Source of the DNA: Kribbella steppae | GTDB taxonomy: Bacteria; Actinomycetota; Actinomycetes; Propionibacteriales; Kribbellaceae | Assembly: GCF_004342025.1 (NCBI RefSeq) | Contig: NZ_SLWN01000001.1 | Coordinates: forward strand, 293,972 to 357,971 | DNA: 64,000 nt | Direction: 5' to 3' | In this document: in pieces, positions 22,334 through 29,080 of the stretch | Layout: the number at the start of each line of letters is the position of its first letter | Numbering within the stretch: position 1 is the first letter of the stretch | Position numbers and translations under genes: made by a program | The notes under the pieces: generated by a model | Database searches by the model: none | The model's input: only the letters and a program-made list of their open reading frames with translations | What the model was told of the DNA's origin: nothing

Positions 22334-22410
22334 TTCCGCCCGGGTCCAGCGCCGTTTCGTTTCCGGCCGGGGTACCGCGTCGGCAGGACGATCCTCAAGG
22401 AGCAAGCAGG

Positions 22411-23301
22411 ATGAAGTACGTGCTGGCCGGCGCCTCCGGCTTCCTCGGTACAGCGCTCGCCCGCGACCTGACCGCCGATGGCCATGAGGTCGTCCGCCTG
22501 GTACGTCGTACGCCCACCACACCGGACGAGGTCCGCTGGGACCCGGCCCGCGGTGACCTGGATCCGGCCGCCCTCGGCGACCCCGACGTGATCGTCAACC
22601 TGGCCGGCGCGAACATCGGCCGACCGTGGACCCCGACGTACCGGTCGGTGCTCCGCGAAAGCCGGGTCAGCACGACAAGCACGCTGGCGAACGCCGCCGC
22701 AGAACTCGAGCGACGGCCGGTGCTGATCACCCAGAGCGGCATCGGCGGATACGGCCTGGACTGCGGCGACCGCATTCTCACCGAAGACTCCGAGCTCGGC
22801 GACGGCTTCCTCGCCGACGTGGTCCGCGTCTGGGAAGGCGCCCTCGAACCTGCCCGCGCCGCCGGCTGCCGCGTCGCCGCCATCCGCACCGGCATCGTCC
22901 TCGACCGCAAGGCCCCAGCGTTCCAGTTGCTGATCCTCCCCTTCCGCCTAGGCTTCGGCGGCCGCCTAGGCCCAGGCACCCAGTACTTCCCGATCCTCTC
23001 CCTCACCGACTGGCTCCGCGGTGTCCGCTTCGTCGCCGAACACGACGCCGTCAGCGGGCCGGTCAACCTCGTCATCCCACACCCGGTCACCAACCAGGAA
23101 TTCACCGAACTCGTGGCCACGGCCCTCCACCGCCCCGCCCTGTGCCCCGTCCCGGCCTTCCTCATGAAGGCCGCCCTCGGCGAGTTCGCCTGGGAACTCC
23201 TGGGCAGCAACCGATCCCTCCCCACCCGCCTCCAATCCCAAGGCTTCACCTTCCACCACCCCACGCCCCAATCAGCCCTCTCCGCCGCTCTAGCGACCTA
23301 A
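22411..23301 (+). CDS. TIGR01777 family NAD-dependent epimerase/dehydratase-like protein
   Basis: A 296-aa atypical short-chain dehydrogenase. N-terminal dinucleotide fold (LAGASGFLGTALARDL, GxxGxxG), the family string QSGIGGYG, and the C-terminal DUF1731-type domain (FLMKAALGEFAWELL..S.R..PTRL). The ATG at 22411 follows CAAGGAGC. No reaction is known for the family. It normally sits between sucB and lipB in relatives, which suggests that the kinase/IS block downstream is an insertion here. Confidence 0.9.
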   Translation: MKYVLAGASGFLGTALARDLTADGHEVVRLVRRTPTTPDEVRWDPARGDLDPAALGDPDVIVNLAGANIGRPWTPTYRSVLRESRVSTTSTLANAAAELERRPVLITQSGIGGYGLDCGDRILTEDSELGDGFLADVVRVWEGALEPARAAGCRVAAIRTGIVLDRKAPAFQLLILPFRLGFGGRLGPGTQYFPILSLTDWLRGVRFVAEHDAVSGPVNLVIPHPVTNQEFTELVATALHRPALCPVPAFLMKAALGEFAWELLGSNRSLPTRLQSQGFTFHHPTPQSALSAALAT

Positions 23302-23350: not shown

Positions 23351-25528
23351 TTAGGCGGAGGTGATGGCGGCAATCCGCCAGGCGGATGTGGTTGAGCGTT
23401 GGGTGGTTGGCGTGCTGGTGAGGGTGATTCGGCGGGTGGCGGGGGCGCCGGCCGGGAGGGTCGCTGTGGTGCCGGAGGGGTCTATGGCTTGGCCTCCTGT
23501 CAGGTGGTCGACGGTGCGTAGGACGACCGTCGACGGGGTTTGGCTTTCGATGGTGGTTTTGTCGATGCGGATCTGCAGGCCACGGACTCGGATCTGATGC
23601 TTGCGGTACGTCGTTAGTAGGGCGCGATCGGCTTCCCACGGTTCGGTGCCGGGCACATAGATGGCGTCGAGCAGGGCGAGGTCGAGCGTCCAGAACGCTT
23701 GTGCGCGTTGGGTGTCGAGCGCCTCAAGCGTTCGGGTCCACTCCCCCGCGTCAACGCGTGATGGTTGCGCTGGCGCGGTCGGGCGCGAGGTAGTTGCCCG
23801 CGCATTGGGTGTCGTAGGGCTCGGCGAGCGTGTGGGTGTCGTAGGGCTCAGTGAGCGTGTGGGTCTCGCAGGGCCCGGTGATTGGGCTGGCGACTGCTCG
23901 GTGCGGTCGGCAACTGCTGCTGTGCCAGCCGGGTTGTCCAGGACGCCGACAGTGAGCAGGCCGAAGATGAGTACAACGACCGCACCGACTCCGACCGCAG
24001 CCAGTACGCCGTACGCCGATTGGCGGAACCCAAAGCGTCGGCTTCCTCTCGTCCCCGAAGCCGGACCTGACGCCGCCAGGGCCGAACCCGATGTTCCCGA
24101 AGTCGAACCTGACATCTGCACAGCCGAACCAGACGTGCCCGAGGCAGATCCTGATGCCCTCGGCACCGACCCCAATCCACCTGCTCTGCTTAGCGCCATC
24201 CTCGACCCGGGCCCATGAACAGATCGCATGAACCGTCTCCAGCGTGCATACCTTCGCCGCCAGGTACGACGGCGGCGTAGGGCTGTGCGCGACGACCTGC
24301 CCGGCGGACGGACGAATCCGGCCGCACCATCACCCCACGCAACGCTCGTGGAGGTTGCTGCGCTGGATGTCGGGTCGCCGGCGCTGGTTGCGGGATGGTC
24401 AGCGTCGCTTGCGGGGTGGAAGGCGTCCAGGATGGGTGCGGCTGCGAGCTCGGGCGGCACTGGTGTGTGGGCGGGCTCGGCGACGGCCTGGTCGGGTACG
24501 TCTCCCAAGCTCGCCCCGGCGACCCCGAGTCTGAATGCGGGGTCGAGGGCTGGGGTGTGGGCGGGGGTGGTTGTGGGGTCGGGGGTGAGTGGGGTGGTGG
24601 CGGGTGGGGCGAGGCGGGACAGGGGGTTGATTGGGGTGGGGGTTGGACGGGTGCGGCGGGTGAGGTTGGGGAGGCGGGGTTTGCGGCGGGCGCGCTTGGT
24701 GGATCCAGGGGTTGGTTTGGGTGGGGGTGGTTGGGGCGGGGTGGGTTGAGAGGGGTGTGGGGAGGACGGCTTCTTCGGGGGTGGGGCTAGGGGGTCGCGG
24801 GCGCGGTGGATGGGGTCGTCTGTGGTTGGGGGCTTGGTGGTTGGGCGTGGGCGTGGTGGTGGGGTGGTGCTGTTTGTGGAGGTGGAGTCGTCGGTGGGCG
24901 TGGGGTCTTGGGTGAAGGCGAGGTTGATGGGGATGGGGGTTGTGAGGGTCAGGAGATCGTGAGGGCGGGTGGTGGTGAAGAGGTTGGGCGTGAAGATGCT
25001 GGGGTCGCCTCCTGACTGGTGGGCGACTGCGGGCAGGGAGGTCAGGTCGTCAGTAGGTGTGGCGGGGCGGGCGGTGTGGAGCACGGCATCGGTGAGGACC
25101 GGGCGGCCGTCGGCGTCGAACATGATGTTGGCCGGGGTCACTCGGCCGTGAGTGAGGCCGGCGTGGTGGAGGTAGTCGATGGCTGCGGCGAGTGGGCTCA
25201 GGAGCGTGACGAGCTCGCCGTCCGTGAGCGGTCCGCGGCGACTGAGTAATGCGGTCAGCGTGCCGGCTACGACGTACTGGCTGAACAGGAGCCACTCAGT
25301 GCCGGTCTCGCGGACCTCTCGGAGGCGCGCGACGTGCGGGTGATCGATGCGCTGCAGGACTGTGAGGTCTTCACGGAGCTCATTTGGGTGTGAGATCGCT
25401 GTCATCGGGACGCGTTTGAGCACAGCGTTGCGGCCGGAAGCGCGGTCGCGAACGAGCCAGACGGTGCCGGCCGATCCGGACCCGAGCTTCCGGCGCAGGC
25501 TGTAGCCGGCGATGTCTTCGAGTGCCAT
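23351..25528 (-). CDS. Degenerate Ser/Thr protein kinase (pseudokinase) with transmembrane helix and extracellular NTF2-like domain
   Basis: A 725-aa membrane protein. The kinase N-lobe is recognisable: glycine loop GSGSAG (16-21) and Lys38 in AVLKRV. The catalytic loop is HGRVTPAN (127-134), so the catalytic Asp of HRD is replaced by Arg129 and the Lys by Thr131, while Asn134 is kept. The DFG region reads TDAV (Asp147 kept). The activation segment and most of the C-lobe are missing, with DDLTSL at about 160 perhaps the remnant of helix F. A Pro/Thr/Lys-rich region (about 200-500) leads to one helix (507-530). After a TRSxSPTTP repeat, an extracytoplasmic domain (about 594-725) resembles NTF2-like sensor domains. 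Probably binds nucleotide at most; a scaffold or signal sensor is my inference. Confidence 0.8.
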   Translation of the reverse strand: MALEDIAGYSLRRKLGSGSAGTVWLVRDRASGRNAVLKRVPMTAISHPNELREDLTVLQRIDHPHVARLREVRETGTEWLLFSQYVVAGTLTALLSRRGPLTDGELVTLLSPLAAAIDYLHHAGLTHGRVTPANIMFDADGRPVLTDAVLHTARPATPTDDLTSLPAVAHQSGGDPSIFTPNLFTTTRPHDLLTLTTPIPINLAFTQDPTPTDDSTSTNSTTPPPRPRPTTKPPTTDDPIHRARDPLAPPPKKPSSPHPSQPTPPQPPPPKPTPGSTKRARRKPRLPNLTRRTRPTPTPINPLSRLAPPATTPLTPDPTTTPAHTPALDPAFRLGVAGASLGDVPDQAVAEPAHTPVPPELAAAPILDAFHPASDADHPATSAGDPTSSAATSTSVAWGDGAAGFVRPPGRSSRTALRRRRTWRRRYARWRRFMRSVHGPGSRMALSRAGGLGSVPRASGSASGTSGSAVQMSGSTSGTSGSALAASGPASGTRGSRRFGFRQSAYGVLAAVGVGAVVVLIFGLLTVGVLDNPAGTAAVADRTEQSPAQSPGPARPTRSLSPTTPTRSPSPTTPNARATTSRPTAPAQPSRVDAGEWTRTLEALDTQRAQAFWTLDLALLDAIYVPGTEPWEADRALLTTYRKHQIRVRGLQIRIDKTTIESQTPSTVVLRTVDHLTGGQAIDPSGTTATLPAGAPATRRITLTSTPTTQRSTTSAWRIAAITSA
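23807..23875 (-). repeat. 27-bp tandem repeat in kinase linker
   Basis: Units starting at 23807, 23834 and (partial) 23861 with period 27. They code for a nine-residue TRSxSPTTP repeat in the extracellular stalk of the pseudokinase. Confidence 0.75.
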
Positions 25529-26266: not shown

Positions 26267-27700
26267 TTACGGGTTGGTCTCGGACGAGCGACGGCGGGCG
26301 AGAGCGAGGCTTGTCAGCGTCGTGATCGCCATAGCGCCGATGCCGACCAGCGCCGCGGTGGTGTAGGCGCTGTCGTCGGGGAAGAGGTGGCCGGGGCCGG
26401 TGCCCGCGGCGAGGATCAGGCCGCCGATGGCGCTGCCCAGGGAGTACCCGACGCTGCGGACGACGTAGTTGAAGCTCATGGCGCTCGACGTCTCGCTCTT
26501 GGGGGTGACGGCGAGGATGACGCCGGGCATCGCGGCCGAGAAGCCGCCGACGCCGAAGCCGAGCACGCCCATCGCCACGAACAGTTCGGCCAGGTCCGAC
26601 CGGGCCGCCGCGAACAGGGCGAACCCGCCGCCGACCACGACGGCGCTGCCGGCCAGGAGCAGGGGGTCGGCGATCCGCGTCCGGACCCGCGGCGTGAGCT
26701 TGCCGGCGACGAACCCCAGCACCGAGAACGGGATGAGGACCAGCCCGGCGACGAAGGTCGTCAGCCCGAAGCCGTAGCCGGCGCCGTGCGGCGTCTGCGC
26801 GTACCGGGTGATGAGCGTGAGCAGGAGGTACATGCCGATCCCGCCGACGAACATGGCGAGGTTCGCTCCCGCGACCGCCGGGTGCCGGACCGCCCGCACA
26901 TCGACCAGGGGCGTCGTGCTGCGCAGCTCGATCACGGCCCAGACGCAGAGCAGCACCACCGCGACGACGGCGAGGCCCGCCGCCACGGCGAGGTGCCGGC
27001 TCCACAGATTCCGTTCGCCGGCGAGGAACAGCACCAGGAGCAGCGCAGCGGCCAGGACGACCGCGCCTGCCACGTCCACGTGGGCGGAGCGGCCTTCGGG
27101 GGCTTCGGGCATGGAGCGCCACGCGGTCAGGAAGGCGACGGCGGTGACGAGCAGACCGAAGCCGTAGGCGGCGCGCACCCCGCCGAGTTGGGCGAGCAGC
27201 CCGGCGAGGGGGTAACCGACACCGACCCCGATGATCGAGACCACCGAGATCAGGGCGATGGTGGCCGCGCTGCGCGCCTCGGGGAGATGGTCGCGGGCCA
27301 CGCCCATCATCAGCGCCGTCAGACCGAGCCCCACACCTTGAGCAGCCCTGCCGACGAGCAGCCACGCGAACGGCAGCGGCAGCACGGTGAGCGCGCTGCC
27401 GGCGACGACGACCGCCAGCGTGACGAGAATCGTGGCCCGCCGGTGCGGGCCTGCTCCGAGCCGGCCCAGGACGGGCGTGGCGACGGCGCCGCTCAGCAAC
27501 GCGACGGTCAGCGTCCACTGCGCGCTGCCGAGCGAGACGTGGAACGACGTCGCCACGCTGGTGATGAGCGGCGCCCCAAGGCTGGCGACCGCTGCCACGA
27601 CCAGCGCGATGAACATCAGGGCGGGGACCAGCAGCCGCGCCTCGGAACGCGCCACCGGGAACGCCTTCACCGGAACCCCGCCGACCGGCTGCCCGGTCAC
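26267..27700 (-). CDS. MFS transporter, drug-efflux-like
   Basis: A 477-aa permease with about 14 hydrophobic segments, closest in pattern to DHA2/EmrB-type proton-drug antiporters (SLGSAQWTLTVALLSGAVATPVLGRLG in helices 2-3; GRAAQGVGLGLTALMM). The GTG start at 27700 overlaps the MarR stop (GTGA, 27697-27700), so the pair is translationally coupled. A MarR repressor next to an efflux pump usually means induction by the exported compound. The longer open frame upstream belongs to another frame of the MarR gene. Confidence 0.88.
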   Translation of the reverse strand: MTGQPVGGVPVKAFPVARSEARLLVPALMFIALVVAAVASLGAPLITSVATSFHVSLGSAQWTLTVALLSGAVATPVLGRLGAGPHRRATILVTLAVVVAGSALTVLPLPFAWLLVGRAAQGVGLGLTALMMGVARDHLPEARSAATIALISVVSIIGVGVGYPLAGLLAQLGGVRAAYGFGLLVTAVAFLTAWRSMPEAPEGRSAHVDVAGAVVLAAALLLVLFLAGERNLWSRHLAVAAGLAVVAVVLLCVWAVIELRSTTPLVDVRAVRHPAVAGANLAMFVGGIGMYLLLTLITRYAQTPHGAGYGFGLTTFVAGLVLIPFSVLGFVAGKLTPRVRTRIADPLLLAGSAVVVGGGFALFAAARSDLAELFVAMGVLGFGVGGFSAAMPGVILAVTPKSETSSAMSFNYVVRSVGYSLGSAIGGLILAAGTGPGHLFPDDSAYTTAALVGIGAMAITTLTSLALARRRSSETNP

Positions 27701-28155
27701 TGCTTCGGCCCCTCGCGGTCCTGGCCTTCGAGCTCTGCCAGATGCTTCAGCGCCGGAAGGGCCGCCACCAGCGCCTCGACCTCGTCGCCGGTGAGCTCGC
27801 CGATCAACCGCTCGAACGCGTGGACGCCCGCCTGGCGCCGCGTCCGGACATAGGCGGCGCCGGCCTCGGTCAGGCACACCAGCGTGACCCGCTTGTCGGA
27901 CGCGTCGCCCCACCGCTCGACCAGGCCGGACTCCTCCATCACCCGGACCAGGGCGGTCATCGCGGGCTGCGTGACGCCCTCGACCGCGGCCAGATCGGTG
28001 ATGCGCCGCGGGCCGGTCCGGTCCAGGGTGGCCAGGGTGGCGGCGGACGTCAGGCTCATGTCCCGGGGCAGGCGTCTCACGGCCCTGGTGGCCAGGCCGT
28101 AGAGGGCTGCCCCAATGGCGGCGGACCCGCCAGGAGCGGTGTCTTGACGACTCAT
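27697..28155 (-). CDS. MarR-family transcriptional regulator
   Basis: A 152-aa winged-helix repressor. The DNA-binding region includes RRITDLAAVEGVTQPAMTALVRVMEESGLVERWGDASDKR (about 53-92, ending in the wing DKR). The ATG at 28155 has TATGCT six bases upstream, so the mRNA is probably leaderless, and the promoter overlaps inverted repeats. Heads a MarR-MFS-DUF1330 operon. Confidence 0.9.
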   Translation of the reverse strand: MSRQDTAPGGSAAIGAALYGLATRAVRRLPRDMSLTSAATLATLDRTGPRRITDLAAVEGVTQPAMTALVRVMEESGLVERWGDASDKRVTLVCLTEAGAAYVRTRRQAGVHAFERLIGELTGDEVEALVAALPALKHLAELEGQDREGPKQ

Positions 28156-28299: not shown

Positions 28300-28338
28300 C
28301 GCCGTACGACGGTGGGCTGTGGACGGCGGCGTACGGCG
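28300..28338. other. Inverted repeat upstream of lipB
   Basis: CGCCGTACG at 28300-28308 is complementary to CGTACGGCG at 28330-28338 (9-bp perfect arms, 21-base spacer), just before the lipB promoter. Could be an operator or the scar of the adjacent insertion. Confidence 0.35.
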
Positions 28339-28353
28339 GGTGCGAGGGCCGCA

Positions 28354-28366
28354 TACACTCGAGGGC
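28354..28366 (+). promoter_or_regulatory. Leaderless promoter of lipB
   Basis: TACACT at 28354-28359, then seven bases (CGAGGGC), then GTG. The lipA start has the same layout (TACCCT, GGAGGGC, GTG). Confidence 0.5.
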
Positions 28367-29080
28367 GTGAGGGAGATCAGGTATGTGGAGGCCGGGTTCG
28401 GTGCCGGCGCGGTGGACTACGAGACCGCGTGGGCCGAGCAGCGGCGCCTGCACGCGGAAGTTGCCGAGGGCACCGGTGCGGACACGGTCATCCTGCTCGA
28501 GCACCCACCGGTGTACACGGCGGGCAAGCGGACCGAGCCACACGAGCGGCCGCTCGACGGGACGCCGGTGGTCGACGTCGACCGCGGCGGGAAGATCACC
28601 TGGCACGGTCCGGGGCAGCTGGTGGGCTACCCGATCGTGAAGCTGGCCTCACATGTGTACGTGGTGGACTACGTACGGCGGCTGGAGGAGGCGCTGATCG
28701 CGGTCTGCGCCGACCTCGGGGTGAAGACCGGGCGGGTCAAGGGACGCAGCGGCGTCTGGGTCGCGGCGGACGATCGCGGCCGGGAGCGGAAGATCGCGGC
28801 GATCGGGATCCGGGTCTCGCAGGGCGTGACGATGCACGGGTTCGCGCTGAACTGTGACAACGACCTGGGGTGGTTCGACCGGATCGTGCCGTGTGGGATC
28901 TCGGATGCCGATGTGACCACGCTGTCCAAGGAAGTCGGGCGGGATGTGGCGGTGACGGAGGTGCTCGAGTCGGTACGGCGGCATCTCGACCGGATGCTCG
29001 CGTGGGAAGAGTACGAGCGGACTCCCGACATCGGGCACGAGGAAGAGCCGACGGCGATCACTTACGGGCTGACTGTCTGA
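28367..29080 (+). CDS. lipB: Lipoyl(octanoyl) transferase
   Basis: A 237-aa enzyme that moves octanoate from acyl carrier protein to lipoyl domains. The start is the GTG at 28367 rather than the longer upstream frame, because family similarity starts there and a leaderless -10 precedes it. Motifs: [17 protein letters not shown] (73-89), Lys142 in [10 protein letters not shown], and the acyl-accepting Cys176 in [14 protein letters not shown]. In relatives lipB and lipA are neighbours; here lipA is 10.6 kb away. Confidence 0.95.

Follow-up and report, generated by a model that had tools for sequence, protein, structure and literature searches.

A compact form of membrane pseudokinase is fixed in Kribbella and is under purifying selection. 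The copy from Kribbella steppae lies on the minus strand at 23351-25528 of the window (the whole stretch of 64,000 nucleotides that was analysed), as an intact open reading frame of 725 codons with an ATG start. In its product the kinase-like part (residues 1-205) is joined by a long linker to a single transmembrane helix, and a C-terminal domain follows the helix. We consider it reasonably likely that this protein crosses the membrane once as a receptor or adaptor: its outer domain would bind a ligand or partner, and a pseudokinase with a nucleotide pocket would dock a cytoplasmic partner without phosphate transfer. The features of the gene and its neighbours are as follows.

22408..23301, plus strand: SDR/epimerase-like neighbour, probably of the TIGR01777 type; 34 of 36 other Kribbella loci
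23354..23764, minus strand: NTF2-like domain, presumably extracytoplasmic, residues 589-725 (about); from the model, Foldseek and VIA-align
23954..24010, minus strand: core of the single transmembrane helix, residues 507-525; from hydropathy
24011..24913, minus strand: Pro/Ala/Thr/Ser/Arg-rich linker, residues 206-506
24914..25078, minus strand: compact C-lobe remnant with helix F- and helix I-like segments, residues 151-205; from hhalign and the genus alignment
25079..25528, minus strand: pseudokinase N-lobe, helix E, catalytic loop and DFG-equivalent, residues 1-150; from PF00069 and the 37-sequence alignment
25082..25090, minus strand: DAV replacing DFG, Asp retained, residues 147-149; Asp in 37/37, Gly position variable
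25127..25150, minus strand: catalytic loop HGRVTPAN with no Asp and no Lys, residues 127-134; from 37 Kribbella sequences
28322..29080, plus strand: neighbour presumed to be lipB-like from its sequence; 36 of 36 other Kribbella loci

The kinase-like part is matched by PF00069 over residues 9-147, corresponding to profile positions 1-141 of 263 (72.6 bits against a cut-off of 31.7), and since the match ends at position 141 the part of the kinase domain that normally follows goes unrecognised. No second Pfam domain was found in the 725-residue protein, NCBIfam returned only general kinase models far below their cut-offs for the whole protein, and the viral library gave 0 matches at E 0.001. Hydropathy gives one hydrophobic segment peaking at residues 507-525, in keeping with the intact gene of 725 codons and the helix described in a previous sequence-only reading. 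From hydropathy, the kinase part would lie inside the cell and the C-terminal domain outside. A simple hydropathy scan finds exactly one hydrophobic segment in 28 of the 34 complete orthologues; the six exceptions are four with overlapping windows or nearby segments, one with an extra segment, and one (L059) with none before a change of frame. In L059 the C-terminal domain is out of frame with the kinase part, through a real frameshift or an assembly error. For the K. steppae gene, a frameshift behind the odd middle part was considered and rejected, given that the frame and the motifs past D147 are common to the orthologues. Codon-position GC does not indicate a clean switch of frame at residue 150.

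The active site was compared across 37 Kribbella orthologue sequences. The HRD Asp is found in none of them, its substitutes being Arg (10), Ser (8), Ala (8), Asn (5), His (5) and Gln (1), and the catalytic-loop Lys (0/37) and the activation segment (lost in 37/37) have gone with it. In K. steppae the two catalytic positions are R129 and T131. Ranked by entropy among residues 1-150, position 129 comes 136th of 150, among the most variable, unlike H127 and D147, which are invariant. The nucleotide pocket is retained: all three Gly-loop glycines (G16, G18 and G21 in K. steppae) and the DFG Asp (D147) are present in 37/37, the β3 Lys (K38) in 36/37 and the loop Asn (N134) in 34/37. The helix F Asp (D161) is also invariant (37/37). 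The helix C Glu is replaced by Asp in 30 of the 37 and is Glu in two, which makes a canonical ATP-bound state less well supported. The spacing from DxG to the helix F Asp is 8-27 residues in Kribbella, compared with 35-40 in the seven kinases of the K. steppae genome.

Set against an active Ser/Thr kinase, the protein lacks the catalytic Asp as well as the activation segment/APE and helix G region, and keeps the nucleotide-pocket residues. The best reading of the alignment is that the compact Kribbella pseudokinase cannot phosphorylate, as had been proposed from the single sequence, and that it may bind nucleotide through the retained pocket. The translation places HGR (H127-G128-R129), T131 and DAV (D147-A148-V149) where they had been reported, and K38, the glycine loop, N134 and D147 do remain in the K. 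steppae sequence. To the question whether orthologues share HGR the answer is divided: the loss of the Asp is common to 37/37, but the replacing residue varies and is Arg in 10. The pocket was judged by sequence alone, since the single-sequence model of residues 1-212 reached a pLDDT of 39; structure prediction, which had been suggested as a check, thus served the C-terminal domain (pLDDT 90) but not the kinase part. An active atypical kinase, using another residue as base or moving a group other than phosphate, would account for the retained Gly loop, K38, N134 and D147, and atypical transfer by kinase folds is an established precedent in other families. Six different replacements of the HRD Asp within one genus, and the absence of the activation segment and helix G region, make such activity quite improbable.

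The sequence-only reading had described the activation segment and most of the C-lobe as missing. Alignment by hhalign of the Kribbella profile with 18 fuller relatives, picked by hand, gave a local alignment spanning residues 6-213 (E 1e-44). The gap against these relatives covers the activation segment/APE and the region of helices G-H; 'TDDLTSLPAVA' matches helix F and 'LLTLTTPIPINL' matches helix I. The description is therefore right for the activation segment and helices G-H and has to be amended for helices F and I. Because equivalents of both helices are retained, 'compact' fits better than the 'eroded' used previously, a word that suits the wider history of the class but misleads for a form that is fixed and selected in Kribbella.

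A search with the N-terminal part (E 1e-20) found one copy each in 37 of 38 Kribbella genomes. The lipB gene adjoins the pseudokinase gene in all 36 other Kribbella loci, and the SDR gene stands on the opposite side in 34; in the other two a contig end cuts the locus short. The sole genome with no match (G036) has lipB and SDR genes of 44% and 33% identity at best, both distant; it may be without the locus or be an atypical member of the genus, and its placement or assembly may be unusual. A record titled Streptomyces sp. SID13031 (L010) bears the Kribbella locus, its genome falls within the genus set, and the title looks misassigned. In K. steppae the pseudokinase and lipB genes are separated by genes for an MFS-type transporter and a MarR-type regulator, both named by inspection (26267-28155, minus strand). 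For neither did the stretches fetched from the 36 other Kribbella loci contain a match at E 1e-15.

Selection was estimated in ten close Kribbella pairs, chosen by hand. The dN/dS ratio was 0.09-0.33 for residues 1-150 (10/10 pairs), 0.18-0.56 for residues 150-205, 0.25-0.40 for the linker and helix, and 0.14-0.38 for the C-terminal domain, and residues 1-150 fell below the C-terminal domain in seven of the ten pairs. Read from these sequences, catalysis is gone in Kribbella, the base position drifts and the remainder is maintained. A functionless, decaying gene might be suspected from the lost catalytic motifs, from the wide spread of whole-protein orthologue lengths (457-1165 aa) and from the C-terminal domain of L059 in another frame. 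This suspicion is already contradicted by dN/dS values that stay far under 1 for each region in all ten pairs and by a single copy at one place in 37/38 genomes, and is hardly credible. Local decay in K. steppae is likewise rejected by the 37/38 single-copy orthologues, the constant locus and the low dN/dS. Orthologues with an intact HRD/DFG and a full C-lobe had been named as the sign of such decay; none of the 37 Kribbella sequences is of this kind, but outside the genus HxD, Asn, DxG and a full C-lobe do occur in the same-locus gene of other class families.

The C-terminal domain is conserved across 22 aligned Kribbella sequences and was modelled from four (K. steppae and L009-L011) with a pLDDT of 90.0 and a pTM of 0.82. 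NTF2-like, Tim44, CaMKII hub and ARC6 chains are among the structural matches of the predicted model. Foldseek ranks 1-18 are all ARC6/PARC6 intermembrane-space (IMS) domains (E 4e-6 to 1e-4; query TM-score 0.64-0.71), and VIA-align ranks 1-6 are ARC6/PARC6 (Z 14.2-15.4), with the next entry at 12.1. Lower VIA-align entries are mitochondrial large-subunit chains and Tim44 (Z about 10-12), with generic NTF2-like entries near 10. An NTF2-like external domain had been proposed from the sequence, and the confident model and both structural searches bear out that fold.

Sequence searches with the same domain gave less. DUF4440 matched weakly, in 6 of 16 members from the outgroups with a best E of 0.0009 and in 4 of 22 from Kribbella with a best E of 0.07, so the profile search recommended earlier yielded PF00069 over residues 9-147 but only these weak matches, in orthologue members, for the C-terminal domain. 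PF13355 (ARC6-like_IMS) matched in 0 of 98 class genomes at E 0.01, the K. steppae genome included, with a positive Synechococcus elongatus control, and was absent among the Pfam matches of profiles A2 and A5. Profiles A4 and A5 gave no sequence link to solved ARC6 chains, IMS sequences had no match in cyanobacterial plasmid NC_007410, and NCBIfam had no useful match for the domain. The predicted fold is thus NTF2-like and nearest to ARC6-IMS, and the sequence of the domain gives no match to PF13355.

ARC6 has one membrane helix and a J-like cytosolic domain, and Ftn2/ZipN is its cyanobacterial counterpart. The Kribbella protein resembles ARC6 and PARC6 in its non-enzymatic cytosolic domain, its one membrane helix and its outer fold (VIA-align Z 14-15, about 125 residues aligned, rmsd 2.5-3.0). 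It differs from them in that its cytosolic domain is kinase-like rather than J-like, identity is 9-14% and PF13355 is unmatched in the class genomes. In plastid division ARC6 connects two proteins, FtsZ and PDV2, that lie on opposite sides of it (PMC5877594). The likeness, which is one of fold only, suggests a tether. It is conceivable, if improbable, that the family plays the part of the ARC6/ZipN tether in actinobacteria. On this view a receptor kinase of ancient origin in the class would have kept its ARC6-type outer domain, its kinase would have been turned into a dock or discarded repeatedly and independently, and the protein would link a cytoplasmic machine, such as the divisome or that of cell-wall synthesis, to a partner in the envelope. 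The Kribbella form would then be a frozen, nucleotide-loaded half-kinase.

Beyond the genus, the C-terminal-domain profile has matches in 111 of 196 genomes of the order, and a broadened version in 146 of 394 genomes of the class. From the match lists, 20 non-Kribbella loci of the order and 38 loci of the class were picked by hand for comparison. Of the 38 class (outgroup) loci, 36 have one or more of lpd, sucB, SDR and lipB nearby, and the order lpd-sucB-SDR, the gene itself, lipB is kept class-wide. This arrangement would suit a protein that regulates the lipoate/2-oxo-acid dehydrogenase genes beside it (lpd, sucB, lipB). However, transcription runs away from lipB and toward the SDR gene, which places the gene outside their operon, old synteny may be passive, and the outer domain suggests a role in the envelope; we give this regulator little credence.

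Across the class, the same locus holds a gene with (i) a fuller kinase domain, (ii) a fully dead one, or (iii) none. Of 51 kinase-bearing ORFs outside Kribbella, 48 are without the catalytic-loop Lys; it is present in L167, L176 and L169, the last a locus cut by a contig end. The β3 Lys, helix C Glu, HxD, Asn and DxG are all present in, for example, L173, L175, L184, L186, L193 and L199. Nucleotide residues are lost in, for example, L168, L179, L181, L182 and L204, several other class families have β3 Lys changed to Arg and the DFG Asp to Gly, and kinase fragments or nothing are left in L183, L190, L197, L198 and L191. These losses indicate that nucleotide binding is not essential to the family role everywhere. 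One family (f4) has two to three tandem kinase-like/transmembrane/C-terminal-domain genes at the same locus in 7/7 fetched loci (L130-L136). Its copies have a full C-lobe, mostly HGD (Asp retained), Thr or Ser in place of the catalytic Lys, DxG and no helix C Glu; among them, the C-terminal domain most like that of Kribbella belongs to the copy adjoining the SDR gene. Another family (f3) retains the C-terminal domain with no kinase match at the same locus in 13/13 fetched loci, with a membrane helix recognised in eight of the 13, which makes the C-terminal domain the constant part.

A tree of 69 loci, built on 1183 columns of neighbour proteins, places f3, f4 and Kribbella in one group, within which Kribbella and f4 are sisters with weak support (0.69); L167, L172, L176, L192, L194, L197 and L202 were left out for lack of neighbours. 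In coding the kinase state, the best tandem copy stood for f4, and L169 and L177 (both cut) were unlabelled. L174, L183, L190, L197, L198 and L178 were manually coded as dead, as were the 13 f3 loci, L172 and L191, where profile A1 has no match, as having no kinase. Four-state coding requires 9 changes, compared with at least 31 in 1000 shuffles, and roots in the fuller state. Two-state coding (complete catalytic set or not) requires 7 changes with an ambiguous root, so a fuller-kinase ancestor is argued from the four-state coding and the outgroups. Same-locus genes elsewhere in the class carry HxD, Asn, DxG and a full C-lobe, which makes a fuller kinase domain probable for the ancestor; the history is read as repeated loss from such an ancestor, possibly one already without the Lys. 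A single late gain within the order is less likely, since outgroup families carry a kinase domain at the same locus.

Repeated loss also bears on whether the cytoplasmic part matters at all. If only the outer domain mattered, the cytoplasmic part would be a stabilising or anchoring remnant on its way out, as f3 might illustrate; the 13/13 kinase-less f3 loci at the same place, the 9 changes for four states on the tree and the outgroups in which fragments alone are left would all follow. In Kribbella, however, dN/dS is lower for residues 1-150 than for the C-terminal domain in 7/10 pairs, and the nucleotide-pocket residues are nearly invariant, which makes this explanation unlikely for the genus, although it carries some weight.

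In the receptor or adaptor that we favour, the outer NTF2-like, ARC6-IMS-shaped domain would hold a ligand or partner in the cell envelope. Inside, the compact pseudokinase would keep its nucleotide pocket (Gly loop, K38, N134 and D147) and act as a docking module for a cytoplasmic partner in place of phosphate transfer, docking being proposed because the catalytic Asp, the activation segment and the helix-G substrate platform are all absent. Nucleotide is probably bound, to judge from the pocket residues, and a bound Mg-nucleotide could perhaps serve as a structural cofactor or a switch. We infer that such partners exist. The 'binding or sensing' role suggested by the sequence-only reading fits such a protein. 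Kribbella offers a clean case in which the catalytic base drifts and the pocket residues are fixed, and which predicts nucleotide binding without transfer. With related families at one fixed locus having a fuller, compact-dead, fully dead or no kinase domain beside a constant C-terminal domain, one can ask why a kinase domain persists after catalysis is lost.

MviN, with which the protein had been compared, is a MurJ-type multi-pass protein, and the Rv3910-type fusion differs in this from the one hydrophobic segment of the Kribbella protein; the comparison stands as an analogy. Bacterial pseudokinases have been little studied experimentally, and MviN (ActPs3) is described as an actinobacterial membrane-bound pseudokinase with a shortened activation loop and a proposed scaffold role (available text of PMC12599244). 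The Kribbella protein is likewise actinobacterial and membrane-bound with a shortened activation segment, but the catalytic motifs of ActPs3 are given as completely degraded (PMC12599244), whereas Kribbella keeps the β3 Lys and DFG Asp. EssB/YukC of type VII secretion is a single-pass pseudokinase scaffold with a reduced activation loop, stated to lack all three motifs and the Gly loop (PMC12599244), a loop that Kribbella retains; the C-terminal part of EssB is helical (PMC3694306, text as available) and that of Kribbella NTF2-like. By the motif losses stated in the available text of PMC12599244, the Kribbella gene is not ActPs1, ActPs2, ActPs3 or DYD: all three motifs are substituted or degraded in ActPs1/ActPs3, while the β3 Lys and DFG Asp are kept here, and the β3 Lys is Arg in ActPs2/DYD, while it is Lys in 36/37 here. 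The term 'NTF2' does not occur in the available text of that 2025 review of bacterial pseudokinase families (PMC12599244), and the open-licence literature yielded nothing on this gene, on Kribbella pseudokinases or on a connection between the ARC6 intermembrane space and NTF2-like folds.

The C-terminal domain is also shared with two actinobacterial receptor kinases, in L167 (5771-7666, minus strand) and L176 (6068-7885, minus strand), where it is matched at E 1e-30 and 3e-26. None of lpd, sucB, SDR and lipB was found in their fetched stretches. Apart from lying away from the lipB locus, they differ from the Kribbella protein in being apparently complete, with HRDxKPxN, DFG and APE.
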